The notes under the pieces: generated by a model | What the model was told of the DNA's origin: nothing | What the model saw: the letters and a program-made list of their open reading frames with translations, nothing else | The model's database searches: none | From: Nitrososphaerota archaeon | Lineage (GTDB): Archaea; Thermoproteota; Nitrososphaeria; Nitrososphaerales; Gagatemarchaeaceae | Assembly: GCA_016200045.1 (NCBI GenBank) | Contig: JACQFN010000016.1 | Span: 186,001 to 250,000, forward strand | Direction: 5' to 3' | Length of the DNA stretch: 64,000 nucleotides | Translations under genes and position numbers: made by a program | Part shown: piece by piece, positions 5,587-38,650 of the stretch | How the letters are laid out: each line of letters starts with the position of its first letter | Numbering within the stretch: the first letter of the stretch is position 1

Positions 5587-5597
5587 GAGGGCTTCTT

Positions 5598-6644: not shown

Positions 6645-6650
6645 AAGTGG

Positions 6651-9708: not shown

Positions 9709-9760
9709 ACTGTGTGTCCCACTGCTACATCGCTTCTTATCCTCTTCCGGGCTGAAAAGG

Positions 9761-9770: not shown

Positions 9771-9793
9771 AAAATCAAGGCGTGTGAAGACTG

Positions 9794-9889
9794 GGGCCGG
9801 TAGCTCAGATCCTCGAAGGAGGAGGGCAGCTTGGCTAGAGCACCCGACTGATAATCGGGAGGCCAAGGGTTCGAATCCCTTCCGGCCCA
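9794..9889 (+). tRNA. tRNA-Ile(GAT) with a non-canonical intron in the D loop
   Basis: Acceptor GGGCCGG/CCGGCCC, anticodon arm CCCGA-CTGATAA-TCGGG (anticodon GAT) and T arm AAGGG-TTCGAAT-CCCTT are all perfect. The D arm is split: GCTCAG is followed by 21 extra bases (ATCCTCGAAGGAGGAGGGCAG) before CTTGGCTAGAGC. Removing them restores a standard D arm. The insert has a CCTC-GAAG-GAGG hairpin, and a CAG repeat at both edges leaves a 3-nt ambiguity in the cut site. The 3' half is the presumed attachment site for the integrase gene that follows. Confidence 0.92.
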
Positions 9890-9890
9890 T
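9877..9890 (+). other. Presumed left attachment site (tRNA-Ile 3' end)
   Basis: CCCTTCCGGCCCAT closes the tRNA-Ile gene and lies 46 bp before a tyrosine integrase gene, the usual arrangement for a tRNA-targeting element. The same 14 bases recur at 50756-50769 and 51725-51738, and a 12-base version at 53443-53454. Degraded forms occur near 41465 and 42935. Which copy is the true partner is not resolved. Confidence 0.55.
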
Positions 9891-9935: not shown

Positions 9936-11354
9936 ATGAAAGTAGCGCGATGGTTCTATGTCAAAGATCCGGTGTTTCCCTCGCATGACAACGCTGGCAG
10001 ACCTTTCCATCATCCAGCATTGTACAAGGAAATCATGAGTGTCATCAAGGAGAACCCCGGTCTCACTGGAAGCGAAATCGCGGCGAAGCTCGGAAAGTCG
10101 AAGGAGTACGTGGTCCCGCGGCTCTGGATTCTCAAGAGGTACACTCAATCGGTCAGGATAGAGAAATCCGGCTTCGTGAGGACTCCGGGTCTTGACGAGT
10201 TCAGAAAGGTTCCGAGCGTCCAGAGGATGCTGGGCAAACTCGGCAGCGAGAAGACGAAGGGACCCTGGACGCGCAGGCTCTTCCGTTATGAACAGTGGCT
10301 GAAGCAGAGAGGCTACTTCAATTCGATAACCGAAGCGCTCGAGGCCTACAAGAAGGCGGACACGGAAGACAAGAAGTATTTCCATGTCAACCTGATTCAG
10401 GAATTTCTGAATTCTTGGAAAGCAGACAAGGACACGAAGGACTCGATTGTGACCGTGCTTCGTGGATTCTACAGGAAGAACCGCGCGGAACTCCCTCGGG
10501 AGAAAATTGTCTACAGCAAGGACATGCTCCTGAACACCCCGAGTGGAAGCGAGGACTACGTCAAACCAGAGGAAATCTGGCGCATCATCAACGACGGCAG
10601 AGTTCCCGTTCGCGACAAGGCGATAATCTCCGTACTTCTCTACATGGGCCTCGACGAGAGCACTCTTGCCACGCAGTTCAACTACTACGCATACCCGCAG
10701 CTCGTCAAGGCGCTTGGAGAAAGCTTCGCCGACTGGGAAGTGAGCCGGGCTCCGATTCGCATAAACCTCATCAGGCCCAAGACCTCGACAAAGTACTACA
10801 ACTTCCTGCCGCAGAAAGGCTTGCAGTTCTTGAAGGACTGGCTAAACGTGAGGAAGCAGATCATGGGTTCGGACATCAAAATACGCAGGGAGGCGGGGGG
10901 AGATGTCTCGGACCCGATCTTCATCAGCAGCAAGAGGCGGCCGATCTACGAGGCGCTCGTGGCCAGCGTTGTGAGAGATTCATCCTTCAAGGCCGGGGTG
11001 CAAAGGCAGACTCTTGGCACCAAGAGGTACAGGATACACGGGCACGAGTTCCGGGACACCTTCAAGACAACCTGCAAGTTTGCGGGAATGGACGGCGCGG
11101 TCGCGGAGTTTTTCATCGGCCATTCGATCGACAAGCTGGGCTACGACAAGTCTCCGTGGGCGTATCCAGACCACTTCAGGGAGCAGTATTCGCTAGTGGA
11201 GCCGTATCTTTCCGGGGAGGGTCGGCAATACCGCGTTCAGGAGGAGAAGCGGCGGGAGCTTGAGGACCGAATAAAGTCTCTTGAATCTGCCTTGTCTCGA
11301 CTAGTAGCTGAGAAAGGAGAGCAAGTTCTCGCGATGGATCGGACCCGCAGGTAG
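9936..11354 (+). CDS. Tyrosine recombinase / integrase
   Basis: A 472-residue protein starting 46 bp after tRNA-Ile. The N-terminal third contains a winged-helix-like segment (GLTGSEIAAKLGKSKEYVVPRLW) followed by a core-binding region; the C-terminal catalytic part shows HGHEFRDTFKTT (His-x-x-Arg), FIGHSID and candidate nucleophile tyrosines in LGYDKSP and EQYSLVEPYL. At the place where the first catalytic Arg is normally found (Gly-Leu-Arg) the sequence reads MGLDESTL, so that Arg is absent or displaced. The C terminus is a short coiled coil. It probably integrates the island into tRNA-Ile. Confidence 0.85.
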   Translation: MKVARWFYVKDPVFPSHDNAGRPFHHPALYKEIMSVIKENPGLTGSEIAAKLGKSKEYVVPRLWILKRYTQSVRIEKSGFVRTPGLDEFRKVPSVQRMLGKLGSEKTKGPWTRRLFRYEQWLKQRGYFNSITEALEAYKKADTEDKKYFHVNLIQEFLNSWKADKDTKDSIVTVLRGFYRKNRAELPREKIVYSKDMLLNTPSGSEDYVKPEEIWRIINDGRVPVRDKAIISVLLYMGLDESTLATQFNYYAYPQLVKALGESFADWEVSRAPIRINLIRPKTSTKYYNFLPQKGLQFLKDWLNVRKQIMGSDIKIRREAGGDVSDPIFISSKRRPIYEALVASVVRDSSFKAGVQRQTLGTKRYRIHGHEFRDTFKTTCKFAGMDGAVAEFFIGHSIDKLGYDKSPWAYPDHFREQYSLVEPYLSGEGRQYRVQEEKRRELEDRIKSLESALSRLVAEKGEQVLAMDRTRR

Positions 11355-19134: not shown

Positions 19135-19791
19135 ATGGCTCCAGTGAAACTCATTTCCTTGGACGTTGGTGGAACCCTCGGATTCTTGCGTGGACAATCC
19201 ATTGCGACGATGCTCTCCAAAGCTTCAAAGCTTCCTCATGAAGACAAAGTGAAGATTCTTCGCAACACATTGCTAGTGGCGCCGAGAATCGACAAGTCAC
19301 TAATCGATGCATTATGCAAGTCTCTCGAACTCCAGCCCATCAGTTTTCCAAGAACCTACTCTGGACCCACCCTTCAATTGTTCCCATGGGCCCTTTCAAC
19401 TTTACAGACATTACGTAGATTTGCTCCCTTAGTTACCCTATCAAACGCATGCTGTCTTGATTCGGACCTCGATGTCCTGAAGAAGAACCTTGGAAATCAT
19501 CTTAGAGCTTACTATGTATCATGTCAGATTGGTTATGCGAAGCCTGACCCCCGAGCATTCGAGACAGTTGCTTCGAAGGAACATGTGGCTGTTGAATCGA
19601 TCTTGCATATCGGAGACAGTTGGGAATGCGACGCTCTGGGGGCACTAGGCGCAGGGGCACAAGCCGTTTGGGTGTCTCACGGTCGCCCTATTCCAACCAA
19701 GGTGGCTTTCCCGGCATCGCAACGGCTCAGGGTCACAAGAAACATCGTGGGAGTCAAAAAGTACTTATCTTTAAGGGCTAAAAGTAAATGA
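19135..19791 (+). CDS. HAD-superfamily hydrolase
   Basis: 218 residues with the four HAD motifs: motif I SLDVGGTLG, where the second Asp of the usual DxD is Gly; motif II TLSNA; motif III Lys in YAKPDPRAF; motif IV HIGDSWECDALGA. Such proteins are phosphatases or phosphonatases for small molecules. Loss of the second motif-I Asp, which normally acts as general acid, may weaken or alter phosphatase action. It is the first gene of the rightward cluster and may dephosphorylate an intermediate of it. Confidence 0.85.
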   Translation: MAPVKLISLDVGGTLGFLRGQSIATMLSKASKLPHEDKVKILRNTLLVAPRIDKSLIDALCKSLELQPISFPRTYSGPTLQLFPWALSTLQTLRRFAPLVTLSNACCLDSDLDVLKKNLGNHLRAYYVSCQIGYAKPDPRAFETVASKEHVAVESILHIGDSWECDALGALGAGAQAVWVSHGRPIPTKVAFPASQRLRVTRNIVGVKKYLSLRAKSK

Positions 19792-19822
19792 AACAGATGA
19801 TCCATTATGAAACAGATGACCC
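19788..19822 (+). repeat. Tandem 16-bp direct repeat before the methyltransferase gene
   Basis: ATGAAACAGATGATCC (19788-19803) is repeated as ATGAAACAGATGACCC (19807-19822), spaced 19 bp start to start. It spans the HAD gene stop and the region 25-60 bp before the methyltransferase start, where an operator or an upstream element could sit. Confidence 0.4.
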
Positions 19823-19846
19823 TTCCCAGACAGTGAGGCGTAATCC

Positions 19847-20635
19847 ATGAGTGAATTCGCTGGCACGGCATACTACTACGATCAGTATCGACCTGGAATT
19901 CCTCAGGACGTGGCGGAGTTACTGCTGGCCAAAGCAAATGCTCGCGCTCCTGCGACGACCCTGCTTGATCTCGGCACAGGCACAGGTCAGGTCATACGGG
20001 CGTTGCATCAGCACTTCGCGCACATTATCGCTGTTGACCCGGATGCGGAGATGCTTGGGTTGGCAAGTGAGAAACTTAGAACCGAAGTCTCTCGACAAAC
20101 CAGATTAGAGTTCTTCAACGGCCGCGCAGAAGACTTCGTCCCTCCTAACGGTTGGACCGCCTCTCTTGTTACTATCTGTCGTGCATTCCATTGGATGGAT
20201 CAGCAGAGGGTGCTTCAAAGGCTGGCCGATTTCGTACCGACGACCGGCCTTGTTGCAGTATTCGGAGACAGCAGCTTTTGGGAGGCTACGTCTGAATGGA
20301 AAGAAGCGACGCGTGAAGTAATCAAGAGCTTCCTCGGAGAGCAACGTCGGGCAGGCTCGGGTGTTTTCTCACATCATGACCGACCGTACGACGAAATCAT
20401 GAGGGAATCTCCTTTCTCCAACGTGGTGGAATTCTCAATCCCCGTGCACCGAACCTGGGACATCACAAGCATTATTGGCTATCTATATTCAACCTCTTTC
20501 GCGGCGCGCCCCTTATTCGGTGGAAGAGCCGCTGAGTTCGAACAAGCCTTGAAGAATACGCTCGCAGATTACTCCGAAGGAGATACTTTTGAAGAAGACA
20601 ACACTTTCGTGATTCGGCTCGGGAGGAATGAGTAG
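19847..20635 (+). CDS. SAM-dependent methyltransferase (class I)
   Basis: 262 residues. The SAM-binding motif LLDLGTGTGQVI is near residue 41, followed by the acidic AVDPDAEML and a motif IV-like region with CRAFHWMD. This is the UbiE/Methyltransf_11 type fold used for many small-molecule methylations. It is 55 bp after the HAD gene and 2 bp before the creatininase-like gene, so it belongs to the same transcription unit. Confidence 0.87.
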   Translation: MSEFAGTAYYYDQYRPGIPQDVAELLLAKANARAPATTLLDLGTGTGQVIRALHQHFAHIIAVDPDAEMLGLASEKLRTEVSRQTRLEFFNGRAEDFVPPNGWTASLVTICRAFHWMDQQRVLQRLADFVPTTGLVAVFGDSSFWEATSEWKEATREVIKSFLGEQRRAGSGVFSHHDRPYDEIMRESPFSNVVEFSIPVHRTWDITSIIGYLYSTSFAARPLFGGRAAEFEQALKNTLADYSEGDTFEEDNTFVIRLGRNE

Positions 20636-20637
20636 TC

Positions 20638-21450
20638 ATGAAAGCTGGCTCAAGTCAGAAAGGAGAGAACAAGGCCACGAATCGACACCTAGGTGGACTT
20701 GCCGCTCCGCAAATCGGTTCAATGCTGACAGCCGACTCGATATTGTGCCTCCCGATTGGCTCGTTCGAACAACATGGCCCTCATCTTCCCCTTAACACTG
20801 ATACAATAATTGCCGAAGGCTTCACCCGTGAAATTATCTCCAAATGGGGAGACTCAGATGATATTTGGGTAGTTCCGACTGTCCCCTTTGGCCTTTCCAA
20901 CGAACACGCATGGTCCAAGGGAACCATGACACTAACCATGCAGATCTTTGCCGACTTCGTATTGACCTTGTGCAAGAACATGAAAAGCGCGGTTCCCGCG
21001 AGGAATCTTCTCGTAATCAACGGTCACGGTGGGAACCGGGGAATACTGGAGGGGTTGGTTTATGAAATAAAGAAGGAAACTTCGCTGAATGTTTGCGTGG
21101 TACATCCCTCTGCTTTGTCGAGTGTAAAGTCAACTTCGTCGCTGCCGGAAGTTCACGGCGGATTGAGTGAGACCTCGGTGATGCTGGCACTATCACCAAG
21201 TGAAGTCTACATGAATCGCCTCCCTCGATCATATGCTCCAAGTTTGCAATCACGTGACAACATACATCGTACGATTCTTCACAGGGGAACAACTTGGCCC
21301 TGGACCTCCGATGATCCATCGATATCTTCGTTGGGCATCATTGGCGATCCCAGAGGAGCAAACTCGGATTTGGGACGTCGAATAGTCGATAGTGCTGTTG
21401 AGGAGTGCGGCAGGGTAATCTCCAATCTGAAGAAGAGAAGGGGAGGATGA
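20638..21450 (+). CDS. Creatininase-family amidohydrolase / peptidase-like protein
   Basis: 270 residues. Metal-binding motifs of the creatininase family are present: a Glu/His in IGSFEQHGPHLPLNTDT, Asp in the same segment, His in NGHGGNRG and Glu in HGGLSETSVM. Family members hydrolyse cyclic amides and formamides (creatininase, ArfB) or cleave the C terminus of a peptide (MftE of mycofactocin). In a cluster with a radical-SAM protein and a short peptide gene, the MftE-like use is an attractive guess, not shown. The stop overlaps the phosphoketolase start. Confidence 0.88.
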   Translation: MKAGSSQKGENKATNRHLGGLAAPQIGSMLTADSILCLPIGSFEQHGPHLPLNTDTIIAEGFTREIISKWGDSDDIWVVPTVPFGLSNEHAWSKGTMTLTMQIFADFVLTLCKNMKSAVPARNLLVINGHGGNRGILEGLVYEIKKETSLNVCVVHPSALSSVKSTSSLPEVHGGLSETSVMLALSPSEVYMNRLPRSYAPSLQSRDNIHRTILHRGTTWPWTSDDPSISSLGIIGDPRGANSDLGRRIVDSAVEECGRVISNLKKRRGG

Positions 21451-23690
21451 AGAACCTCCCCAGTGCGGAGTCCAATTCAATTAAGGCCATCAATTCATTT
21501 TGGAAAGCTGCGAATTACGTAAGCGTGTGCTTACTGTACTTAAGGTCCAATCCTATGCTACTCAGAGATCTCGATCTAACCGACTTCAAACCTAGGGCGC
21601 TCGGGCATTGGGGTTGCGTTCCCTCAATCAATTTCATTTGGGCTAATCTACTCTCCACCATCCGTTCCACCAGTTCCGACGTGAGGCTATTCCTCGGAAC
21701 TGGTCATGCCGGAGCTTCGTGGCTGGCCTGTTCCTACCTAGAAGGCTCGCTTCAGAATTACTATGGCACAGGCATAGATGAGAAGAGCCTCGCAGAACTT
21801 TCGGCCAGCTTTGGGCGAACTGACGGTTATCCTACGGAGTTAAGCGCGCTTTTCCCAGGCGTCCTGTGGCCGAGCGGCGAGATTGGATATGCGCTTGGAG
21901 TTGCCCATGGTCATGCTCTGAACACCAAGAGCGCCATATCGGTCGCAGTAGTGGGCGATGGCGAGTTGGAGACAGCGCCGACGAATGCCGCCCTTCTTGG
22001 AATACGAAAGTTCGTCGCTAGCCCTTCCAGACTTGTTATAATCGTCAACCTAAATGGTCTTCGGATGGGGGGTCCAAGCGAAATATCCAATTGGACTGAC
22101 TCGCAGATCAGAGACTATTTCGTCGGTCTGGGTCTTGATCCCTGGTTCGTAGAAGGCTTCAATGCCTCGATGTTGTCGGAGAAACTTGACGCTGCTTTTA
22201 GAGCTTCATCACGACCAGGAGGTCCAAAGGTTATTCTGTTTAGAACCCCAAAGGGGGCAACGATTCCGTCCTCACCAGAAGGGCAAGAAATAGCTGGAAC
22301 GAGTCTCTCTCACAAGGTGCCGGTCAAGAGCATCATAGACCGAGATGACATCGACTGGGTTGAGGCATGGTTGCGTTCGTACGGACCTGACAAAATCTTC
22401 AAGGGCGCGAAGCTTGATAGATCTAGATACGCATCCATTCTCCCACCGAAGAGGCTGTTGATTGGAACCGTCAGAGATCGCCTCAAGACCGAACACCCTA
22501 CCTTAGACATTCAATCAGAGAAGAGAAAAGCATTGAAGGCCACAATGCCGGAAGCATTTTGCGAAGCTATCGAAATCATTGCCGCGAAGTACTCGCAAGG
22601 ACTGCTGCTTACATCTCCTGATGAACTCGCCTCGAACAGACTTCACATTCGACCAGACCACATAGACATCATTGAGTATCTCTCAGAGCATGAGTGTCTG
22701 TCGTGGTCAATCGGGGCCATTATCGCTGGCAAACCTACATGGTTTACCAGCTATGATGCGTTTGCATCCATAGTAGTTTCTATGGTGACTCAATACCTCA
22801 AATTCCTTGACAGCGCCTCGAAGTCTCCAGTCAATACTCAAAACCAGCCGTTGAATGTTTTTCTGACTAGCCTTGCCTGGAGAAACGTTCCTTCCCACCA
22901 GGACCCAGGTTTTGCGTCCACGCTCCTAGAGAAGCATTCCGATTACTTTCGCTGCTATCTTCCAGCAACCCCCCAAAGCATGACCGAGATTGTTGCAAAG
23001 TGCCATCGAAGAGCAAACTTGGTGAATTGTGTCGTGGCAGACAAGTATCCAAGTGCTTGGAAAGTCCCTCGGGCGGGCCCTTACAACGGTTCCCCATTCT
23101 CTAGACTGGGAAAGTGGGGGGCAAGAAATCACAAGTCGAAAGTCAGCTTCGTTGTGGCAGGAGACTATCTCATACGAGAAGCGATGTACGCATCAGAAGT
23201 CATTGGGAACGCGGGATTAGAAATGGCATCAGAAGTAATCGTTCTCGAAGAGCTAAGCTGGCTTTACCGGTCTTCAGTTGGGTGCAACGCGCTAAGAGAG
23301 CAATTTCGTCGCGTAATCGCTGGGTCAGACACCGTTGTTCTATTGACAAGCTTGTATGAAGATTGCCTATCTAGTCTAATGCGGGTTCTGGTCGACGAGA
23401 CAACTCATTTGCTAGTCCACGGATTCCAACCCTCTGGAAAGCAGCGACCCCCCCTTGGCGTATTGACGGACAGTAGGAGTTCGTGGGTTCAACTCACCAA
23501 AGAAGTGCTCTACCTCGCTCAGTCGGAGTCAGTCAGGTCTTCTAAGTACAACTCAATCCTAGGTTCATTAGAGAAAATCGCGCACAGAATCACAAACGAC
23601 TTAGACGAGTCTTATGATGATCCAGCCTGGTATTGGGAATCTGAGCCCCTTAAGTTGCTGTCCCTCGACACTAAGGCCAGAATCGATTAG
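21447..23690 (+). CDS. Divergent phosphoketolase-family ThDP enzyme
   Basis: 747 residues, slightly shorter than usual phosphoketolases, which split xylulose-5-P or fructose-6-P into acetyl-P and an aldose phosphate. Clear marks: RALGHWGCVPSINFI, GTGHAGASWLACSYLEG, the ThDP motif GDGELET followed by an Asn about 25 residues later (VNLNG), FRTPKGATIP, DELASNRL and SHQDPGF. The segment Pro-Ser-His of canonical enzymes reads PTEL, and the conserved His-Glu-Gly-Gly-Glu-Leu-Gly reads PSGEIGY, so at least one active-site His is missing and the substrate may differ. ATG 21447 overlaps the previous stop (ATGA). Confidence 0.9.
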   Translation: MKNLPSAESNSIKAINSFWKAANYVSVCLLYLRSNPMLLRDLDLTDFKPRALGHWGCVPSINFIWANLLSTIRSTSSDVRLFLGTGHAGASWLACSYLEGSLQNYYGTGIDEKSLAELSASFGRTDGYPTELSALFPGVLWPSGEIGYALGVAHGHALNTKSAISVAVVGDGELETAPTNAALLGIRKFVASPSRLVIIVNLNGLRMGGPSEISNWTDSQIRDYFVGLGLDPWFVEGFNASMLSEKLDAAFRASSRPGGPKVILFRTPKGATIPSSPEGQEIAGTSLSHKVPVKSIIDRDDIDWVEAWLRSYGPDKIFKGAKLDRSRYASILPPKRLLIGTVRDRLKTEHPTLDIQSEKRKALKATMPEAFCEAIEIIAAKYSQGLLLTSPDELASNRLHIRPDHIDIIEYLSEHECLSWSIGAIIAGKPTWFTSYDAFASIVVSMVTQYLKFLDSASKSPVNTQNQPLNVFLTSLAWRNVPSHQDPGFASTLLEKHSDYFRCYLPATPQSMTEIVAKCHRRANLVNCVVADKYPSAWKVPRAGPYNGSPFSRLGKWGARNHKSKVSFVVAGDYLIREAMYASEVIGNAGLEMASEVIVLEELSWLYRSSVGCNALREQFRRVIAGSDTVVLLTSLYEDCLSSLMRVLVDETTHLLVHGFQPSGKQRPPLGVLTDSRSSWVQLTKEVLYLAQSESVRSSKYNSILGSLEKIAHRITNDLDESYDDPAWYWESEPLKLLSLDTKARID

Positions 23691-23811
23691 ACTCAGGCTG
23701 ATGTGTTCCCCTGACTGCGGCCATTTCGTAGGATCCGGGGCGCGTCGGTTATCAGCATCATAGGCTCCTTGCCTGCCGAAAAGAGTTCACAAGGCCAAAG
23801 AGAGGCTTATC

Positions 23812-23943
23812 ATGTCCGAACTCTGTTCACCCAATACATTCGTCCCCGATGTCAGATGGAAGCTGAGAATTAACAGCGGGACGAAATATACCAAGATGTC
23901 GTTAGATTACCAGAGCCGGCTGATAGAGCCAAAAGGATATTAG
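23812..23943 (+). CDS. Small peptide gene (43 residues) between phosphoketolase and radical-SAM genes
   Basis: An ATG preceded by AGAGAGG at 7 nt spacing opens a 43-codon frame ending in TAG, 9 bp before the radical-SAM start. The peptide begins MSELCSPNTFVPDVRWKLRI and ends in IEPKGY. One Cys, three Tyr and a C-terminal Gly-Tyr are visible; there is no hydrophobic segment. Position directly before a radical-SAM gene, and in a cluster with a creatininase homologue and an ATP-grasp protein, would suit a modified-peptide precursor. It could also be an unimportant short frame. Confidence 0.45.
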   Translation: MSELCSPNTFVPDVRWKLRINSGTKYTKMSLDYQSRLIEPKGY

Positions 23944-23952
23944 GTCGTCGAC

Positions 23953-25035
23953 GTGAATTATCACTCCACTTTGTCCCAGACTCAAGGAGCAATCAGGCTC
24001 GATGAACTGGCGTCCCAATACCGAGTTCCAGGATTAGATTTAAAATTGATGGCTCTCAACCTGTACGGGATCTATTCAAACACCGCTGATGGAAGAGCGA
24101 GAATCGAGGTTCGCCCTGTTGACCATTCCGAGTCAGAGTGGCACGTGATAGTGCCGACTGGGAGAGACAATAGTCCATATCGACTTGCAGGCGATAGCTT
24201 GCTCCTCTCTGACACGGAGTTTGCCAAAGTGCGTTTCGTCGAACACGATGACGCTCGTCTAGGGTACCTACGTGACAAAGGCAGAGTCTTAACGCTGAAC
24301 ACCAATCGTCGCTCGAACTGTACTGGATGCCTCTTTTGTCCGAATACCCTCGCAGACGCGAACGATCCTCGGATCACCAAGTCAGAAATTGATGAATGGC
24401 TGGCCGCGTTCTTGCGAGAAAAAGCTTGGGCAGACTTGTCGTCTGTGAGAGAGATAAATCTGTCAACTGGATGCTTTGGCGAGGAAACGCGTGCCTTGGA
24501 ACACCTGGTTGACTTGCGGGCATCGCTGACCAAGTTTGGATTCAAGGGAAGACTCGGGATACTGTCTTCTGTGATACGAAGTGAAGGCGCAATGAGAACC
24601 CTATCAACTTTACGTCCCTTTGCCCTCTTTCTGACCTTGGAGTGCATCACAAGACGGGACTTGTTGTTGAAAGAGAGCAAGGCAAGCCTCTCGCCAGAGG
24701 AGGCCATTCGAGTTTTGTCGCGCGCCAGAAGAGAAGGCATTGATACGGGGGTGATGATTGTTGTGGGCCTTGACGACATTGTTGATGTCACAAGGTGGCT
24801 GAAGGAGGCAGTACTCCACCTGACAGACTTTCCCAATCTCCAAATCTTCCAATCCCATTCCCCGTACATGGACTTCTTCAGAACAAAGGGGGCTGACAAT
24901 TTGGAGTTTTTCTTGCGAGCACGCACCGAATTCGAGGCCATTCTTTCGCTAACCCCGCTGAGGCCTCACAACTGGCAGAATTACCGTCCCCTTTGGTACA
25001 CCAGTTTCGGGTCAGAAAAACTTCAATGTCCTTAA
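23953..25035 (+). CDS. Radical-SAM-like protein with CX2CX2C motif
   Basis: 360 residues from GTG 23953. The cluster-binding motif sits at residue 123: Asn-Cys-Thr-Gly-Cys-Leu-Phe-Cys-Pro, giving CX2CX2C instead of the usual CX3CX2C. Downstream are REINLSTGCFGEE (a GGEP-like SAM segment), LTLECITRRDLL and GIDTGVMIVVGLDD, all fitting the partial TIM barrel. No SPASM-type cysteine cluster follows. The N-terminal 110 residues form a separate, beta-rich domain. Radical-SAM enzymes make C-C, C-S or C-H modifications; the substrate here is unknown. Confidence 0.82.
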   Translation: MNYHSTLSQTQGAIRLDELASQYRVPGLDLKLMALNLYGIYSNTADGRARIEVRPVDHSESEWHVIVPTGRDNSPYRLAGDSLLLSDTEFAKVRFVEHDDARLGYLRDKGRVLTLNTNRRSNCTGCLFCPNTLADANDPRITKSEIDEWLAAFLREKAWADLSSVREINLSTGCFGEETRALEHLVDLRASLTKFGFKGRLGILSSVIRSEGAMRTLSTLRPFALFLTLECITRRDLLLKESKASLSPEEAIRVLSRARREGIDTGVMIVVGLDDIVDVTRWLKEAVLHLTDFPNLQIFQSHSPYMDFFRTKGADNLEFFLRARTEFEAILSLTPLRPHNWQNYRPLWYTSFGSEKLQCP

Positions 25036-25487
25036 CAAGAAACGCTGTAGTGGGTAGGGATGTAACTGTCGTCTCAGCAGGAGAACATTTGTCTCTTCTA
25101 TCTACTATTCCTCTCCTGGCCGACAAGAAGGCCAGCCGCATTCGCCTGGCCGTAAAGAACTGGACGTGCGTCGGCTTGGGAATCCAGCTGGAAACGACAA
25201 CTCTCCTGGTCGTGATGAATGCCCCGAGAGAGCTGGCGAAACTCCCAGTCGGGTCTTCCATCCTGATTGATCACATTGACCTGCTCGGATCGAGCATTGA
25301 GTTTGAACGTGCGCGTGAACGGTTGATCTCCCTCTTGAAGCCCGATCCTCGGCTCAATGTTGACTCCCTCTCAAGCAGGGCTTCTCATCATGCACTATTG
25401 TTCATACTTGAGGCCCGTGATCCTGAAGTCAGGCGAAGCAGGACCGAGGCATTAAGAACGAGTTTGAGCCTAGGAAAGGGGGTGTAG
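25026..25487 (+). CDS. Unknown cluster protein
   Basis: 153 residues from ATG 25026, overlapping the radical-SAM end by 10 bp, so cotranslated with it. No cysteine motif and no membrane helix. Predicted by eye as an alpha/beta domain (GRDVTVVSAGEHLSLLSTIP) followed by helices containing ASHHALLFILEARDPEV. The close coupling suggests a partner or recognition subunit of the radical-SAM enzyme; this is inference only. Confidence 0.65.
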   Translation: MSLTRNAVVGRDVTVVSAGEHLSLLSTIPLLADKKASRIRLAVKNWTCVGLGIQLETTTLLVVMNAPRELAKLPVGSSILIDHIDLLGSSIEFERARERLISLLKPDPRLNVDSLSSRASHHALLFILEARDPEVRRSRTEALRTSLSLGKGV

Positions 25488-25494
25488 AGTCGAA

Positions 25495-26274
25495 ATGATT
25501 CAGGGCATGGAGGTATCCAACGACGAGAAGAGACAGTTTGTACGGGAAGGGTTCGTCATTCGTAGAGGCTTCGTGTCACAAGCCTTGACAGAACCGGCGA
25601 AGCGATTGGTGGAACAATGGTACCGAAACTCTTACGACGCTTCCAACATAGAGAAATACACCCAAAAGACGTTTGCCCCCGATCTTGGTAGCCATCCTGA
25701 TCTCCTGAATGTCTACAGGAGTTCGGGGCTGGCCGAAGCAACTGCTTCACTGGTTTCACCTGATCATATCCAAGCAGTCTCCACCGTCCAAGTTCAGATT
25801 CGAGTACCTGACTCTGCACTTTCAAAGGCCCAACCTGAGAAAACAATGCATGTTGATGGAGTCTCATGTCCTCATCTGGATCCTAGGGAACTTCGCACCT
25901 TCACATTGATTGCGGGTGTGCTCTTGTCCGATGTGAAGGACGCAAACGGAGGTGCCCTTAGATTTGTCCCAGGCGGGCACGTTGACATGGCTGAGTGGTT
26001 CCGCAACGAATGGGCATTGGGAGCGTCTGATCAAGTTCCAGACAGGGTTAGCAGGAAACCGAGCGTTCCTTTTGTTGGCAAAACTGGTGACTTGATTATC
26101 ATGCACCATCTCGTCCCACACGCAGTCGGCTCTAATAGTAGCGGCACACCGCGCATCATGCTGTATTTCCGAGTCAAACACGTGGAACACGAAAAGCTTG
26201 TGCTGGATGCGCTTCGCGATCCCTGGGTAGAGTATCCGGAGTTGAGGAAGCTGGCTCTTCAAACTCAAAACTAG
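25495..26274 (+). CDS. Phytanoyl-CoA dioxygenase (PhyH) family Fe(II)/2-oxoglutarate oxygenase
   Basis: 259 residues. The iron-binding facial triad is visible as His-x-Asp in MHVDGVSCPH (near residue 121) and a distal His in HHLVPHAVGSNSSG, followed by an Arg (PRIMLYF) for 2-oxoglutarate. The N-terminal FVREGFVIRRGFV helix-strand is typical. Such enzymes hydroxylate, halogenate or epimerise small molecules and are frequent in natural-product clusters but rarely seen in archaea. It begins 7 bp after the preceding gene. Confidence 0.87.
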   Translation: MIQGMEVSNDEKRQFVREGFVIRRGFVSQALTEPAKRLVEQWYRNSYDASNIEKYTQKTFAPDLGSHPDLLNVYRSSGLAEATASLVSPDHIQAVSTVQVQIRVPDSALSKAQPEKTMHVDGVSCPHLDPRELRTFTLIAGVLLSDVKDANGGALRFVPGGHVDMAEWFRNEWALGASDQVPDRVSRKPSVPFVGKTGDLIIMHHLVPHAVGSNSSGTPRIMLYFRVKHVEHEKLVLDALRDPWVEYPELRKLALQTQN

Positions 26275-27549
26275 ATGGCGAGTTGGTCTCACTCTGGGGA
26301 AACAATGGACATTTTTCTGAATAATACTTGTGTTGAGCGACTCAGGACCAGTCTGAAGGATGTCGTCCGACCGTTTGTATACCGCAAGCTCGTCATTCTT
26401 ACTGGAAGTGCGTCAAACAATAGCGCCCTTTCAGTTTTCTTCCTGGAGGCTGGCTCGAATTGCGTTCGCACGGTAGAACTACCGTCTAGACTTGGGTCAA
26501 CATACTTGCGGTTCTCCAACATGGAAAGACTTCTCAGTAATCCCCCCCGACGCGTAAGGGAGGTTGTAGAAGGAATCGATCCGGAGCGTCGGGCTGTCGT
26601 GTACGCTGGATCGTTTACAGGTCGAACCTCATTTTGTGGGCGACGAATCCTGGGTTATAGACGTCGTCCGCACTTTGAAGCTGAACGGAAAGATCGGCAA
26701 CTCGAATTTCTAGCTGATGAAGCCTCAGGGAACAAGATCGTTGTGAGTCTAAAGGATGAAGACGCACTCCTGAGAAATGTACTTCTTAGGATACGACGAG
26801 CTCCTGTAGTAATATCTGGCGTCCCGGATGGTTACTTGGCAATGGGAAGTAGTCATACCTTCTTGATAAGGAATGGAGCCAACAGCTCGGAGACTAATGG
26901 AATCAGGAGAGTCATCAGGTTTCTCGCCTCCGACTGTAGGAGTGTAGTCCTCTCGGATTTGGTCGAGGGCACTCCCTGCACATATTATGGTTTCGTTTCG
27001 AGCGACTGGGCGATTGACTTTGGCGCTTTCGAAGCGTTGGTATACTGGAACACTAGGAAGCTGCACCTTTGGGCGCCTGGAATAATGCGTCCATTGACAA
27101 TGGACGGTTCGACGGCCAGAAAAGTGAGTAAGGAGGTGTGCCGCACAGCCATTCGTCTTAATCAGAGGACGGGATATACGGGAGCCTTTTGCGTGGATGG
27201 TGTGCTTAAGGCTGACAAGTATACGATTAATGAAATCAATCCCCGCATTTGCGCAGGCTTCTCTCTGCTCTCCGAGTTGCTCGGAGACAGTCTGCCTCTA
27301 ACCATAGTAGATCTATCTCTTAGAATCAGTCCGTCCGAATCAAGTTCGTCCTTATACGAGCCTCTCAGTGACCTAGCATGTCAACTTGCGAGACAGGATC
27401 GCATGGTAAAGCTATGGGATGCCAAGTTCAAGCCTCTTGAGAGCAAAATGAGAAGACGTGCCCTCAGAGAGAAGAGTGTATCCAAATGGCTTTTGGGTAA
27501 TCGACATGCCTTGGCCGACGGCCTTCATATACCACTAGTGGAACTCTAG
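26275..27549 (+). CDS. ATP-grasp family ligase
   Basis: 424 residues starting directly after the PhyH stop. The ATP-grasp catalytic region is recognisable at the C-terminal side: FCVDGVLKADKYTINEINPRICAG carries the Asp/Glu-x-Asn-Pro-Arg metal-binding motif near residue 325. A DLVEGTPCTYYGFV segment earlier fits the domain. These enzymes join a carboxylate, activated as acyl phosphate, to an amine or thiol. In this setting it may form an amide bond on the product or modify a peptide. Substrate unknown. Confidence 0.8.
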   Translation: MASWSHSGETMDIFLNNTCVERLRTSLKDVVRPFVYRKLVILTGSASNNSALSVFFLEAGSNCVRTVELPSRLGSTYLRFSNMERLLSNPPRRVREVVEGIDPERRAVVYAGSFTGRTSFCGRRILGYRRRPHFEAERKDRQLEFLADEASGNKIVVSLKDEDALLRNVLLRIRRAPVVISGVPDGYLAMGSSHTFLIRNGANSSETNGIRRVIRFLASDCRSVVLSDLVEGTPCTYYGFVSSDWAIDFGAFEALVYWNTRKLHLWAPGIMRPLTMDGSTARKVSKEVCRTAIRLNQRTGYTGAFCVDGVLKADKYTINEINPRICAGFSLLSELLGDSLPLTIVDLSLRISPSESSSSLYEPLSDLACQLARQDRMVKLWDAKFKPLESKMRRRALREKSVSKWLLGNRHALADGLHIPLVEL

Positions 27550-27563
27550 ACAAGCTTGGATTG

Positions 27564-28697
27564 ATGGACACCTTCAACGACCTGATCAATCAGCCAATTA
27601 CCTTGCAAAAAGCCGAAGTCTGCACCTACGTTAACTCCGAAGTCAACGTTGCTGACCGCCTAACTCGACTTGTCCGGGCGAGGCGGGGTCTACCCTACCA
27701 ATTGAAAGTCGCGCACAGATACTTGCACTTGTGGACGGCTGAGGGGATTGAGTGCTGGTATGGGCCCTTTGATGATAGGGCGAACATTTCACTCCCTGCT
27801 CTTCTCGAAAAGGTTAGACTCATAGGGAGAAGGACTTCGATCGCGAAAGCCGCCGAGAAACTGAGTCGGTTCTGGGACAGTGATCCCTTTGGTTGTTCAG
27901 CCATAGACTGTGTTCTCTGGGATGCCATTTGTCGGGACAAACAATTTCCGCTTTGGCGAGCACAATCTGAGGGACTCCGGAGAATTGACAGAAACCTTCC
28001 TTTCTACGGCAGCGTTTTGGGCCTCCCAACCGAGAACGTTGACCTCCTGTCGACCGTCTTGGAGGAAGGCTATCCGGTAGCAAAATGGTCGTTGAATCGT
28101 CAAGGGTCCGTTCTAGAGCAAATTCGTGAAATCGGTCGGACCAATATCCGGTTCGACCGCATCGCACTCGATGGCCATGGTAGTATGGCCATTTCCGAGG
28201 TCATTCAGGTCCAAGACTCGGCACCCGAGGTTGCATGGCTCGAGGACCCCTTTCCCCTGCAAAGCTGTATCATGGCACAACTTGCAAAAGAGTCGAGGAA
28301 GGTCATGCCGCCTTTGGTCATAGGTGAAAATCAGAGCTCAACTGAGCTGCTCCTGGATATGGCGCGCAACCCAGCAATAGGAGCTGTCAATCTCGAGGTG
28401 GAGATACTTGGCATAACGAGAACCATCTTGTTGATTAGATATCTTGAAAAGATGGGCAAACCATGTCACCTACACGGTAGAGCTCTTGTGACTTCGTCAC
28501 ATCTGGCAGCAATGCATCCGAAGGCTGTACGATGGGTTGAGATTCACCTAGCCTTCGCACTTGAGAGACTAGCAACGTTAAGAGATACCCCGACAGATGA
28601 CCCTCGAACAATTGTGGAATACTGCCTGGAGAGGGAAGGAGTCGGAGTGCAACCGAGCGCTACTAGTACAGTTCGTGAACGAACCGTAATACTCTGA
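27564..28697 (+). CDS. Enolase-superfamily enzyme (mandelate racemase / muconate cycloisomerase type)
   Basis: 377 residues from ATG 27564 (a TTG three bases earlier is also possible). The metal-ligand carboxylates are seen as Asp in RIALDGHGS, Glu in VAWLEDPF and Glu in VIGENQSS. The usual catalytic Lys-x-Lys reads KWS in PVAKWSLN, so only one Lys is kept; a His in CHLHGRAL could be the base on the other face. The family abstracts alpha-protons of carboxylates (racemases, epimerases, dehydratases, including dipeptide epimerases). Confidence 0.83.
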   Translation: MDTFNDLINQPITLQKAEVCTYVNSEVNVADRLTRLVRARRGLPYQLKVAHRYLHLWTAEGIECWYGPFDDRANISLPALLEKVRLIGRRTSIAKAAEKLSRFWDSDPFGCSAIDCVLWDAICRDKQFPLWRAQSEGLRRIDRNLPFYGSVLGLPTENVDLLSTVLEEGYPVAKWSLNRQGSVLEQIREIGRTNIRFDRIALDGHGSMAISEVIQVQDSAPEVAWLEDPFPLQSCIMAQLAKESRKVMPPLVIGENQSSTELLLDMARNPAIGAVNLEVEILGITRTILLIRYLEKMGKPCHLHGRALVTSSHLAAMHPKAVRWVEIHLAFALERLATLRDTPTDDPRTIVEYCLEREGVGVQPSATSTVRERTVIL

Positions 28698-28722
28698 AAC
28701 CCCATGCCGGATTGCGATTCCT

Positions 28723-29415
28723 ATGAAAGTGATATTACCCAGCAATATAGGCTTGGCAGCTCGTGCGTTAGAAGCTGGCGGATTGGTAGTAGTCCCGACT
28801 GAAAGATGGTACATGCTTTGTTGCGACGCCTCCAATGTAAGTGCATGTGAGCGGGTGTTCCAAGGAAAGCGCAGATCAACGAATAACCCCCTCCTTTTAG
28901 TGCTTCGCTCAAGAAGTGAGGCTTACAAGTACTTCCAAGTCAATCGAAGCGCCGGGCGCTTAATTGAATCGTTGTGGCCGGGGGACCTTGCACTTATACT
29001 TAGATGGGCCGATCGGAAGATGGGTCTCGAATACCAAGCGGTGGGTTCAGAGAAAGCTTTGGTTGGTTGCCCAGGTGGAACGCTAGGTGCCCTCGCAGGG
29101 GAGACTGGGGTGATGATCGCAGCAACCTCTGCGAACATATCGGGAGTCCCATCCGACGATAACGTCGGACCCGCAATAAGCGTAGTCGAAGTCATGACCT
29201 TCCTCAAGAAAACGGACACGCATGTGTCGTTCATAATCGATGGAGGTATCTGTCCTCAGTTTACGCATATGACGATTGTCGACTGCACCGACCAGAAAAC
29301 TCAGCCTGTCGTTATTAGAAAGGGAACCGTGCATAAACGTGCGGTTGAATTATCTTTAGGAAAGGAGTCAGACCTTGACTCATTGTCATCCAGTGGAGAC
29401 TCCGAGGCGAAGTGA
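28723..29415 (+). CDS. YrdC/Sua5-domain protein
   Basis: 230 residues of the YrdC fold: an N-terminal AARALEAGGLVVVPTERWYMLCCDA, KRRSTNNPLLLVL, SLWPGDLALIL and ATSANISGVPS. Sua5/YrdC makes threonylcarbamoyl-AMP for t6A tRNA; YrdC domains are also used in carbamoylation of natural products (HypF, TobZ). The KRxxxxP-like substrate segment is KRRSTNNP. Lacking the C-terminal Sua5 domain and placed in a biosynthetic-looking cluster, it may carbamoylate a cluster intermediate rather than serve tRNA. Confidence 0.83.
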   Translation: MKVILPSNIGLAARALEAGGLVVVPTERWYMLCCDASNVSACERVFQGKRRSTNNPLLLVLRSRSEAYKYFQVNRSAGRLIESLWPGDLALILRWADRKMGLEYQAVGSEKALVGCPGGTLGALAGETGVMIAATSANISGVPSDDNVGPAISVVEVMTFLKKTDTHVSFIIDGGICPQFTHMTIVDCTDQKTQPVVIRKGTVHKRAVELSLGKESDLDSLSSSGDSEAK

Positions 29416-30311
29416 GAAGATCGGCAATGGCTATTGTAGCGATTTTGGACGCCCCGAAACCTCACGGTAAGACTCCGGCAACGCGAAGACTGCGAAGGGA
29501 TGGTCACAAGGTGATATTCCTACACCGGAAAGGCTTGAAACTCTCGTCAATACTCCAAGTTGCTCCTGACGCAATGGTCCTTGCTGTGGGAGATGAGCGA
29601 GACATCCAGTTGATTGAGGAGACCAGAGAGTGCGCAGGGATCGCTCATCTGACAATAATTGCCTTGGTTTCGAGATCGGACCAGATAATTCATGCATATG
29701 ATGCCGGTGCTGACAATGTCCTTCTCGACTCCCAATTTCACCTGGTTCCCGCCATTATCCGCCAGCTCTCGAATAGACTCCACAAGTTCACCGTGTCTCC
29801 TCTTACTGGCCTTCCAAGCGGTGTTCAGGTCGAATATGCTATGGGGAAATTGCCGAGTAAACAGGGCTGGAGCATTCTCTATGTAGACATTGATGATTTC
29901 AAGTCGCTTAACGACACTAATGGCGTTTTGTTTGGAAACATGATAATTGAACTGTTAGCTTCGGTCTGTCGGGAAACCGTTCGCGAAAGAGGGAACATCG
30001 GTGACTTTGTGGGACACATTGGTGGCGACGACTTCCTTATCATCTCATCTTCTAATCGAGCATCCGACCTCAGCGACCTGATTAGGAATCGATTCCACAG
30101 AAGGAGTCGCTTGCTCCAATCCAGTTTGGTTTCGAGTTTAAGCGTGACAAATCGGGGAGACAGTCATGTTAACGCCAAGCTGAATCAGCTGTCAGTGTCC
30201 ATCGGAATCGTCCATTACCAGAGGGGATTACCTAAAGCAACGGTTGAGATTGCCCGTCTTGCAGCCCAGGCGAAGGCAAACGCCAAACGGCTTTCCGTTC
30301 GACAAGCATGA
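29412..30311 (+). CDS. Receiver-like + GGDEF-like domain protein
   Basis: 299 residues from GTG 29412, overlapping the YrdC stop (GTGA); ATG 29427 is an alternative. The first 120 residues have an alternating beta/alpha pattern like a receiver domain (VLAVGDERDI, IIALVSRSDQIIHAYDAGADNVL) without an obvious phospho-acceptor Asp. The second part contains SPLTGLPSG, ILYVDIDDFKSLND, FGNMIIELLA and the signature GGDDF, the hallmark of diguanylate cyclases, with Asp replacing Glu. GGDEF proteins are rare in archaea, which points to transfer from bacteria. Confidence 0.82.
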   Translation: MRRSAMAIVAILDAPKPHGKTPATRRLRRDGHKVIFLHRKGLKLSSILQVAPDAMVLAVGDERDIQLIEETRECAGIAHLTIIALVSRSDQIIHAYDAGADNVLLDSQFHLVPAIIRQLSNRLHKFTVSPLTGLPSGVQVEYAMGKLPSKQGWSILYVDIDDFKSLNDTNGVLFGNMIIELLASVCRETVRERGNIGDFVGHIGGDDFLIISSSNRASDLSDLIRNRFHRRSRLLQSSLVSSLSVTNRGDSHVNAKLNQLSVSIGIVHYQRGLPKATVEIARLAAQAKANAKRLSVRQA

Positions 30312-31478: not shown

Positions 31479-33317
31479 TCACGAAGTCAACTCGCCAGCA
31501 TAAACTCGATTCCGCTCGATCAAGGAAGGAACCTCCCAGCACAAACAAAACAAAACGTTCCGATTCGTATTCTCCCTTGAAAGGCTCTGAATCAGCTTCT
31601 CATCATCTGAACAGACGATGACGCTATGGAAATTGTTCAGGGCAATCCCAATGTTACCTCGAAGGTCGGAGTTTCCCGTCTCGACATTGATCGCGGTTTG
31701 CATGGGCTGAATCTGTATGTCCGGCCCCGTACGCGAGGCCACACCGTCCACTCCCTTCTCACGCAGTTTTCCAATTATCCAATTGACGTAGAATTCGTGC
31801 TTGACTCCTGGATTCGTGCCGGGAGCTTGATAGAGGATCCTGGGCGCACCCTTACCATTTCTCACTCTGATTCGCTCAATTTTGCCCTTCTGAATCAACT
31901 GCTTGACCGCTTTCGAATACGATTTGTCGGTCAGATGCAGAAGGTGTCGTCTCTCACGAGTTGGGATGAACGGTCGAGATTCCACGCTATTGAGAAACGC
32001 CTTTTCCTCGTCGGACAATTCATCGCGCAAGGTCTTGACTGGCATGAACTCCGTACCTTCTGGAATCTTCGGCATGTGTCGTACTAAGTCATCTTTCGTG
32101 ACCGCGGAAATCGAAACCTCCGGAGCTGAAACGATGAACGGCTCATCAATCAGAGGCGTCTTCACGATCGCCTGCTTCTGCTTCAGGTTTGTCAGCGCTT
32201 GTGCAAAGTGCTCGAGCGCCGCGCTCCAAGTGTAACCGAGACTCTTGCCTGCGAGCTCGATGTCCTTGCCGTCTTGAAGTCTGAAGTAGAACACGTTCTG
32301 ACAGTTTTTCCTGATGTCGTCTTCGATGTTCGACGGGCTCTGGGTGATGATTGCAATGCTCTGGCCCCTCTTTCTCAATCGGCTGCTGAACTCGGTCGTG
32401 AGATGCGTATCCGTCGCAACGACCTTTCGTAGAATCTTTGGAACGAGCAATTGCGCCTCGTCTGCGATGAAGAGATTCGTGACTTCGTCCGTAATTGCCC
32501 TTCCGAGCGCGAGTTTGAGATAGGCTACAGCTATGGCGTTGTAAATCAGTCTCATCTCAGTTCGGTACGCGACCTGAGCCTCCAGGGAGTGAAGGTCAAT
32601 CAGGATGTTCTTCTTGTCTAGGGTTTCGAAGTCTATGCTCGATGCTTCAGTGTAGAAGATTTCGTTCAGCACAGGGTTGCTCCGGTAAGGTTCGAGCCTT
32701 ACGAGAAGCGCCGTCTTGGACTTCTCGAGACTGTTCAGTCTGAACGGGAGCTCCTGGTCCTCAAAACTGATGACGTTATCGATGAGAGATGGGATTGTGT
32801 TGCTCATCTGGATGCACTTCTCAAGCACGTAGTTCATCTGGGGGCTGAGATCCTGGTACTCAGCCTCGACGCCTTTGAATGTCGTCTCCTTGAGGAGTGC
32901 TCTGACGAGTCCGTAGTCGTTCAGGTCGTACGGATTGATTCGTAGATTCTCGTAAGGAGCGTAGTATTCGACTTCACCGTTCAACTTTGGAATGATGTTC
33001 TTCCACTCCCCCTCCACGTCAAGAATGAGAAGCCTGATGTCCCGGTGCTCAGCCTCAATCGCAAGTTTCATCGCCGCCCTAGTCTTTCCTCCGCCGGTCG
33101 CCCCGTAAAACGCGAAGTGGAACCCGAATTGACTCGGAGGAATTCTGAACTCGGCACCGTCAGAGAGAAGTCCGAGATGTGCTCCATTCACAGATTGATT
33201 CGAGCCAGTTGAATGTAGAAAGTTCGGAAGTGGCGAGGAGCAAAACGTGCAAAGTCCTCGTTTCTTTTCCGTTAGACTTCCGCAACTGAGACACACCCAA
33301 TATTCAATCCGAATCAC
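31479..33317 (-). CDS. HerA-type ATPase with N-terminal zinc ribbon and C-terminal winged-helix / nuclease-like part
   Basis: 612 residues. An N-terminal ribbon (CLSCGSLTEKKRGLCTFC) precedes a HerA/FtsK-like motor: Walker A FYGATGGGKTRAA near residue 72, Walker B NLFIADEAQLL near 285, and a SIAIITQSPSNI sensor. The C-terminal third has a winged-helix segment (RERRHLLHLTDKSYSKAVKQLI) and then GPDIQIQPMQTAINVETG, whose acidic pattern resembles a PD-(D/E)XK core. This layout mirrors the larger ATPase at 11-14 kb. GTG start overlaps the preceding ribbon gene. Likely a DNA pump for transfer or segregation of the element. Confidence 0.82.
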   Translation of the reverse strand: MIRIEYWVCLSCGSLTEKKRGLCTFCSSPLPNFLHSTGSNQSVNGAHLGLLSDGAEFRIPPSQFGFHFAFYGATGGGKTRAAMKLAIEAEHRDIRLLILDVEGEWKNIIPKLNGEVEYYAPYENLRINPYDLNDYGLVRALLKETTFKGVEAEYQDLSPQMNYVLEKCIQMSNTIPSLIDNVISFEDQELPFRLNSLEKSKTALLVRLEPYRSNPVLNEIFYTEASSIDFETLDKKNILIDLHSLEAQVAYRTEMRLIYNAIAVAYLKLALGRAITDEVTNLFIADEAQLLVPKILRKVVATDTHLTTEFSSRLRKRGQSIAIITQSPSNIEDDIRKNCQNVFYFRLQDGKDIELAGKSLGYTWSAALEHFAQALTNLKQKQAIVKTPLIDEPFIVSAPEVSISAVTKDDLVRHMPKIPEGTEFMPVKTLRDELSDEEKAFLNSVESRPFIPTRERRHLLHLTDKSYSKAVKQLIQKGKIERIRVRNGKGAPRILYQAPGTNPGVKHEFYVNWIIGKLREKGVDGVASRTGPDIQIQPMQTAINVETGNSDLRGNIGIALNNFHSVIVCSDDEKLIQSLSRENTNRNVLFCLCWEVPSLIERNRVYAGELTS

Positions 33318-33529: not shown

Positions 33530-33701
33530 ACAACCTTCCTCTCACGAACTTCGCATAACAGTCTGGGCAGAATACGTGGCCGTTGATCACTTGCAGGCAG
33601 TTGGCGCAACAAGGCTTCTTGCAGTTCGTGCACTTGCCGGCGCCGACATTCTTCACAAACGTGTGGCCGCAGTCGAGAGTAGGGAAGTCTATCTCGTTGA
33701 T
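33522..33701 (-). CDS. Small zinc-finger protein, probable ATC start
   Basis: 59 residues if started at ATC 33701, which stands 7 nt after GGAGG inside the end of the TFB gene. It contains CGHTFVKNVGAGKCTNCKKP, CCANC and CPDC, enough for two zinc sites. The only canonical start, GTG 33656, would remove the first Cys-Gly-His. The stop overlaps the next ATG. Too short to be noticed by length-based gene calling. Confidence 0.6.
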   Translation of the reverse strand: MNEIDFPTLDCGHTFVKNVGAGKCTNCKKPCCANCLQVINGHVFCPDCYAKFVRGRLYD

Positions 33702-36896: not shown

Positions 36897-36970
36897 GATA
36901 TCACCTTCTCCTTTGTTTGATTGTCTGTTTCGCGCGTGAGATTCCGTTACGGATTTTCGTGACTGGAGAC

Positions 36971-38595: not shown

Positions 38596-38620
38596 ATCAC
38601 AATGAGAAATTGCACGAAAC

Positions 38621-38632
38621 TATTTAAAAAGA
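38621..38632 (+). promoter_or_regulatory. Promoter of the methyltransferase gene
   Basis: TATTTAAAAAGA preceded by CGAAAC forms a strong BRE/TATA pair; its centre is about 24 bp before GTG 38651, so the message is predicted to be leaderless. Confidence 0.6.
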
Positions 38633-38650
38633 CCATACCAATCTGAAAGA

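Follow-up and report, generated by a model that had tools for sequence, protein, structure and literature searches.

A putative small-molecule biosynthetic cluster on an archaeal integrated element and its actinobacterial relatives

Eleven genes carried on an archaeal integrated element form an operon-like locus that probably directs the synthesis of a small molecule and belongs to an orphan biosynthetic family otherwise present in Actinobacteria. They lie between positions 19135 and 30311 of the window, which is the whole 64,000-nucleotide stretch of a Nitrososphaerota contig analysed here. The genes belong together as a coherent cluster, and chance does not account for their assembly. As its genes co-occur elsewhere, the interpretation given in the original prediction is largely upheld. 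Of the features it described, the gene families, packing, composition and island stand, while a proposed 43-residue peptide does not. To our knowledge, archaea have so far yielded few natural-product pathways. The locus is linked to dozens of actinobacterial genomes, including those of laboratory-accessible Streptomyces, so its product can be sought at once.

The archaeal locus and its integrated element

Open reading frames and Pfam matches define eleven same-strand genes, representing the HAD, class I methyltransferase, creatininase, phosphoketolase (XFP), radical SAM, PhyH, ATP-grasp, MR_MLE, YrdC and GGDEF families, together with a protein here called U. These genes, like the tRNA and integrase genes described below, are on the plus strand. 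The gaps following the stop codons are, in gene order, 55, 2, -46, 262, -43, 7, 0, 11, 25 and -4 bp. The tight packing and reduced GC content claimed originally are borne out by these gaps and by the computed composition. GC is about 0.50 in the cluster and about 0.60 in the flanks; GC3 rises from 0.525 in the cluster through 0.61 elsewhere on the island to 0.78 in the flanks. Twelve genes had been counted before, one of them encoding the 43-residue peptide. The 262-bp gap preceding the radical SAM gene looks intergenic, which reduces the count to eleven.

The cluster had been placed on an archaeal integrated island, and the surroundings confirm this. The element extends from 9890 to 53430 (about 43 kb; right end approximate), as delimited by an empty site and by lower GC and GC3. 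It is inserted at the 3' end of a tRNA-Ile gene (9793..9889; 9824-9889 according to ARAGORN), immediately followed by the gene of a tyrosine-type integrase (9936..11354; Pfam Phage_integrase, E=6e-7). A 15-16 bp att-like repeat of the tRNA-Ile 3' end, CCCTTCCGGCCCATT, occurs at about 9877, 50756 and 51725, and 13 bp of it at 51804. In a genome of the same genus (G338), the flanks 5425-9890 and 53430 onwards lie near each other, joined at tRNA-Ile, and the island is missing. The radical SAM gene is present in only one of the 31 genomes of the genus and one of 398 in the phylum. The island also encodes a type II restriction-modification system.

Related loci in Actinobacteria

Searching plasmids by tblastn with the radical SAM sequence and scanning genomes with its alignment yielded 60 actinobacterial loci, in most of which the same genes stand side by side. 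The radical SAM gene is present in all 60, the enolase-superfamily gene in 58, the HAD and methyltransferase genes in 57 each, and the phosphoketolase-like gene in 54. Accessory genes are more variable (PhyH 35, YrdC 34, creatininase 23, ATP-grasp 4), and some bacteria possess the core without tailoring genes. Two sub-orders are kept across loci, HAD-methyltransferase-creatininase and PhyH-ATP-grasp-...-YrdC, and in the main actinobacterial type the radical SAM and phosphoketolase-like genes are directly adjacent. The archaeal locus fits the family defined here by a radical SAM protein with the motif RSxCxGCxxC, encoded beside phosphoketolase-like, enolase-superfamily, HAD and methyltransferase genes. 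The prediction would have fallen had its genes never co-occurred elsewhere, but in most of these 60 loci they do. It had also stated that no pathway with this set was known, which agrees with the open-access literature searched (subscription journals being largely outside the search), where neither the gene combination nor the motif was found described.

The proposed import partly from bacteria is only half borne out. In the radical SAM tree, the window protein pairs as sister with a single actinobacterial clade (94/91). The branches are long, however, and the gene order differs from that of the actinobacterial loci. The phosphoketolase-like protein is neither nested in nor firmly grouped with the actinobacterial cluster proteins in its own tree. 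Because of these features and the GC content of about 50%, a recent actinobacterial donor seems unlikely. A viral or phage origin was considered and rejected, no match being found in the phage collection or viral contigs.

The encoded proteins

Two proteins stand out, one by its cysteine motif and the other by its active site. The first is the radical SAM enzyme (23953..25035), in which about 115 additional N-terminal residues form a domain ahead of the CX2CX2C motif (C123, C126, C129). At 25.3 bits its Pfam match is weak, the cut-off being 29.5, and no PDB relative was found by sequence. The AlphaFold model (pLDDT 91.6) matches radical SAM barrels in Foldseek, with E=2.5e-6 to lipoyl synthase 4u0p; lysine aminomutase 2a5h is another such relative. 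Judging by this model, the protein is a radical SAM superfamily barrel, for which [4Fe-4S] cluster binding and SAM cleavage are predicted. In place of the canonical CX3CX2C, the spacing CX2CX2C is found in all 76 relatives that have the motif region, and several Arg and Lys residues are invariant in the family. The non-canonical motifs given in PMC4389238 are those of ThiC (CX2CX4C), HmdB (CX5CX2C), QueE (CX14CX2C) and PhnJ; CX2CX2C does not appear there, and the present family would extend that set.

The phosphoketolase-like TPP enzyme (21405..23690) matches XFP_N (E=6e-57) and XFP above the Pfam cut-offs and XFP_C below it. An alternative in-frame ATG at 21447 would overlap the creatininase stop codon as ATGA. 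The enzyme shares the fold family and the TPP/Mg residues of phosphoketolases (3ahc, 3ai7, 8io6) and keeps the counterparts of His64, His97, Lys300, His320, Glu479, Tyr501, Asn549, His553 and Lys605. The roles assigned to these residues are in part those given in PMC10547157 and PMC6435721 and in part general background on phosphoketolases. His142, by contrast, which according to PMC6435721 accelerates DHEThDP dehydration, is replaced by Glu in 54 of 54 aligned proteins, the other catalytic residues being kept. The window protein also differs from the four plasmid phosphoketolases compared (about 27-33% identity), and in the loci found the cluster enzyme is always encoded beside the radical SAM protein. 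By alignment, one and the same active-site change runs through this phosphoketolase family.

The enolase-superfamily protein (27561..28697) was assigned by Pfam MR_MLE_C and conserved columns. Its residues K175, D204, E228, E256, E279, H305 and E327 correspond to the mandelate racemase subgroup, with the Lys, the metal-ligand trio Asp-Glu-Glu, the His and the Glu in the same order and spacing. It departs from this subgroup in that Glu (E279) takes the place of Asp in the Asp-His dyad. Its nearest solved relative, at very low identity, is the 3,6-anhydro-alpha-L-galactonate cycloisomerase 5xd7 (E=6e-4), and it is 26% identical at best to its cluster relatives.

Among the remaining core proteins, the HAD-family protein (19135..19791; Pfam; best identity 47%) carries D-V-G-G-T as motif I, and dephosphorylation by it is uncertain because the second catalytic Asp of the phosphatase motif DxDxT is absent. 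D10 and G12 belong to the positions that at least 95% of the 59 members in the alignment share. The class I SAM-dependent methyltransferase (19847..20635; Pfam) is up to 64% identical to Streptomyces cluster members. U (24993..25487; 164 aa, with a likely start ATG at 25026) had been described only as an unknown coupled protein and can now be placed, as a divergent member, in a cluster-specific family that combines a beta-barrel with three helices. It was recognised by hhalign at E=0.0013, a short match over 39 C-terminal columns, and weakly resembles OmdA/YdeI; no clear structural match was found in the PDB. Judged from sequence, U is fused to the HAD protein in one actinobacterial locus (L004) and, in another (L005), to GGDEF. 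These fusions suggest that U and either HAD or GGDEF act together as a complex.

Among the accessory proteins, the PhyH-type Fe(II)/2-oxoglutarate oxygenase (25495..26274; Pfam E=5e-13) keeps HxD...H and is up to 57% identical to cluster members. The divergent ATP-grasp ligase (26275..27549) has a weak Pfam match and is 38-39% identical to its counterpart in actinobacterial clusters, of which two of the three scanned gave weak ATP-grasp_3 matches. Creatininases hydrolyse amides; the creatininase-family amidohydrolase (20638..21450; Pfam E=1e-50) is the sole creatininase in the host genome. The YrdC/Sua5-family protein (28723..29415; Pfam E=6e-29) is an extra copy, the housekeeping one being on another contig (C12). 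The GGDEF-domain protein (29412..30311; Pfam E=4e-13) reads GGDDF, has an N-terminal region without Pfam assignment and is the only GGDEF protein in 61 genomes; it very distantly matches the GGDEF proteins of type-B clusters. The second YrdC copy and the unique GGDEF indicate that these two are not host housekeeping genes, and the housekeeping roles that would have told against the original prediction do not apply to them. GTP cyclohydrolase III and ArfB were considered and set aside as identities of GGDEF and creatininase, respectively, since the former keeps GGDEF-type features and the latter matches ArfB weakly (E=7e-7).

Proposed pathway and alternative readings

The product may be a small, polar metabolite derived from a phosphate or sugar compound. 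Of the modified metabolite or peptide envisaged at the outset, the peptide finds no backing. The core (radical SAM, phosphoketolase-like, mandelate-racemase-type, HAD, U and methyltransferase proteins) would build a scaffold, starting from a small precursor that is phosphorylated or resembles a sugar acid. Removal of a carboxylate alpha-proton, leading to dehydration or epimerisation, would be the task of the enolase-superfamily enzyme, and the TPP enzyme would cleave or transfer a two-carbon ketol unit. The replacement of His142 by Glu suggests a departure from the usual dehydration that gives acetyl phosphate. The radical SAM enzyme could carry out unusual chemistry at a C-H or C-C bond of a substrate that is charged and probably phosphorylated, and the HAD protein and methyltransferase might finish the core. 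PhyH could then hydroxylate it, ATP-grasp and YrdC could add an amide or carbamoyl group, and the creatininase could remove an amide; the order of these steps is a guess. The ATP-grasp gene (4 of 60 loci) and the GGDEF gene lie outside the common core, which counts against the pathway, as does the lack of a firm grouping of the window phosphoketolase-like protein with those of actinobacterial clusters. A more tentative proposal, which may well prove wrong, is that the CX2CX2C enzyme represents a new class and, in concert with a mandelate-racemase-type enzyme and a phosphoketolase that carries Glu for His142 and has been put to a new use, builds an undescribed natural-product scaffold in Actinobacteria and the archaeon.

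The cross-domain spread, the GGDEF partners and the occurrence of a bare core in some bacteria would also suit a cofactor or signalling compound that is not secreted. This is unlikely in view of the very patchy distribution in genus and phylum, the plasmid and island locations and the variable tailoring genes. Degradation of a sugar acid or amide compound is less probable again. Sugar-acid catabolism often employs phosphoketolases and enzymes of the mandelate-racemase type, and creatininase would fit such a specialised operon. However, no conserved kinase, aldolase or uptake transporter was found with the cluster in the related loci, and the radical SAM, methyltransferase, PhyH and YrdC proteins are biosynthetic in character. 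Exporter genes, moreover, stand beside the cluster in L004 (MFS) and, from the look of the sequence, probably in L072.

An antiviral system that makes a modified nucleotide, like viperin, was weighed because distant radical SAM relatives lie beside DAC-like or GrpB proteins, some actinobacterial ones lie beside GGDEF, and the clusters are found on plasmids and on an island with a restriction-modification system. It is improbable: PADLOC gave no specific match for the cluster proteins, only a mads_2 methyltransferase domain and weak Cas10 palm matches, the phage and viral collections gave none, and creatininase, PhyH, ATP-grasp and enolase better suit metabolite tailoring.

In a ribosomal peptide (RiPP) reading, patterned on mycofactocin, the small open reading frame upstream of the radical SAM gene (23812-23943) would supply a peptide that the radical SAM protein modifies and the creatininase cuts. 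The pairing of these two enzymes recalls the mycofactocin cluster, and the creatininase does have MftE as its nearest NCBIfam match, although below the cut-off (128.6 against 172). None of the related loci, however, encodes anything corresponding to the 43-residue peptide (best tblastn E = 0.073), and the radical SAM and phosphoketolase-like genes abut in the main actinobacterial type. A precursor and equivalents of MftB, MftC and MftF are absent and the radical SAM motif is unrelated, so mycofactocin itself was rejected. The fold matches are headed by lipoyl synthase, with the peptide-modifying SkfB and SuiB lower down. As the peptide is unsupported, the cluster is probably not a RiPP locus, and we regard that reading as highly improbable. 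A chance neighbourhood of unrelated imported genes, for which the lack of a described pathway in the open-access literature searched might speak, is refuted, the genes having repeatedly turned up together across 60 loci, and retains almost no probability.

An integrated element at a tRNA-Ile gene

The archaeal genome carries an integrated element with a coherent, conserved and, in the open-access papers searched, undescribed predicted biosynthetic cluster, which, judging from its sequences, appears to include an unusual radical SAM enzyme (rSAM) and an altered phosphoketolase. The element begins at the 3' end of tRNA-Ile (9889), ends near 53430 and encodes an integrase at 9936. The 3'-end repeat of tRNA-Ile, 15-16 bp in length, is found at about 9877, 50756 and 51725, with a 13 bp copy at 51804. 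In G338, a genome of the same genus, a tRNA pair is followed directly by homologues of the genes from 53430 onwards and has the left flank on its other side; this site is therefore empty. The integrase, the repeats and the empty site corroborate the original prediction of an integrated island, and the low GC content noticed there is also borne out, with a GC3 of 0.525 for the cluster, 0.61 for the other island genes and 0.78 for the flank genes. The three serial repeat copies at 50755-51819 are perhaps traces of repeated integration.

Two HerA-type ATPases (11368-14058 and 31482-33317), a TFB (33692-34408) and an Orc1/Cdc6-like protein (36917-38140) point to a possibly conjugative or plasmid-like element. 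The island also harbours a type II restriction-modification set (38149-41379), consisting of a C5 methyltransferase, a restriction enzyme with a HATPase domain and a Vsr endonuclease.

Gene content and recurrence of the cluster

The cluster (19135-30311) had been described as twelve same-strand genes. The shared strand holds, and Pfam recognises HAD, class I methyltransferase, creatininase, phosphoketolase (XFP), radical SAM, PhyH, ATP-grasp, MR_MLE (enolase superfamily), YrdC and GGDEF families, the radical SAM and ATP-grasp matches being under the curated cut-off. The number is reduced to eleven, since the 43-residue peptide (23812-23943) lacks a counterpart across related loci (best E 0.073) and was left uncounted. 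No Pfam family was assigned to the 164-aa product U (24993..25487, +). The ATP-grasp identity is backed by weak matches in two of three scanned relatives. Intergenic gaps are short throughout, except for 262 bp ahead of the rSAM gene.

A tblastn search against plasmids returned eight actinobacterial records at 39-45% identity to rSAM. Six were opened, five annotated and one (L006) without annotation and read as ORFs; related genes surround rSAM in all five annotated records. Scanning genomes with the rSAM alignment yielded 71 loci. HMM searches of 60 actinobacterial loci detected enolase in 58, HAD and methyltransferase in 57 each, XFP in 54, PhyH in 35, YrdC in 34, creatininase in 23 and ATP-grasp in 4, several genes being counted as missing where contigs are short or cut. 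In most of these loci the cluster genes thus recur side by side, and the concern that they never co-occur elsewhere can be set aside.

Most often the genes are arranged as rSAM-XFP-enolase-U-HAD-methyltransferase-creatininase-PhyH-(ATP-grasp)-YrdC; another arrangement is rSAM-enolase-HAD-GGDEF-U-XFP-methyltransferase. The archaeal order is unlike both, retaining HAD-methyltransferase-creatininase and PhyH-ATP-grasp-enolase-YrdC. A shorter version, rSAM-XFP-HAD, is present in Treponema lecithinolyticum. An aminoglycoside phosphotransferase-family gene, possibly for self-resistance, adjoins the cluster on two linear plasmids from Streptomyces (L002, 23204-24190; L097, 6090-7082).

Predicted properties of the enzymes

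All 76 rSAM relatives that cover the motif region carry CX2CX2C, usually in the form RSxCxGCxxC, and none has CX3CX2C; one further match, a fragment, lacks the motif. CX2CX2C is not among the listed exceptions to CX3CX2C (PMC4389238). A PDB search by sequence found no relative of rSAM. A model from 44 sequences (mean pLDDT 91.6) matches rSAM barrels in Foldseek, lipoyl synthase best. About 115 residues lie N-terminal to the motif. The invariant columns include R107, R235, K243, R324 and R345, suggesting that the substrate is anionic.

Relative to four phosphoketolases encoded in plasmid records, XFP retains the counterparts of His64, His97, Lys300, His320, Glu479, Tyr501, Asn549, His553 and Lys605. 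The His142 position is Glu in 54 of 54 XFP proteins, including those of the archaeon and Treponema. In the dehydration of DHEThDP, the proton comes from His97, and the step is sped by His142 and Gly155 (PMC6435721), so the replacement bears on dehydration.

PhyH retains HxD...H, and the enolase-superfamily protein the mandelate-racemase pattern. Motif I of HAD is D-V-G-G-T; similar motifs also occur in some dehalogenase-type members of the superfamily, so this protein need not be a phosphatase. The U family is present in most actinobacterial clusters, and archaeal U aligns with it across its C-terminal part (hhalign E=0.0013). The predicted structure of a U relative is a beta barrel with three helices, for which a PDB search gave no clear match. 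U is fused to GGDEF in L005, with a Pfam OmdA match under the curated cut-off (E=5e-4), and, by sequence, to HAD in L004.

Distribution and origin

The host is the sole match for rSAM among 31 genomes of the genus and 398 of a phylum sample, and for XFP among 300 genomes. The cluster YrdC is a second copy in the genome, the creatininase is the only one there, and the GGDEF protein is the only one across 61 genomes.

In the rSAM tree, the archaeal protein is sister to the clade of the commonest actinobacterial cluster type (94/91); its branch is long and lies inside an actinobacterial group (100/100). Archaeal XFP also forms a long branch, near the split between the four plasmid phosphoketolases and the actinobacterial cluster proteins, and its placement is therefore unsure. 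Actinobacteria have high GC contents, unlike the cluster with about 50%. From the rSAM tree, the XFP placement and this GC content, we conclude that the cluster arrived by transfer at some depth.

More distant rSAM relatives occur in Patescibacteria, Aenigmatarchaeota, Micrarchaeota, Nitrospinota and Bacillota, with neighbours that differ from the cluster genes; in a number of them these are two-subunit TPP enzymes, GrpB-like proteins or DAC-like proteins. Two-subunit TPP enzymes like phosphonopyruvate decarboxylase adjoin rSAM relatives in Patescibacteria and Calidifonticultor (L059, 2452-4405; L068, 8025-9984; L060, 2444-3528), the Pfam assignment being from L059 only. A GrpB-like gene, mostly directly downstream, lies near rSAM relatives in L064, L067, L069, L070, L073, L074 and L075, Pfam-confirmed in L069 and called by sequence inspection in the other six. 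Weakly matching DAC-like proteins (diadenylate cyclase fold) follow rSAM relatives in L058 (6250-7401) and L077 (11115-11657). L059 and L068 also contain a methyltransferase matching that of the cluster.
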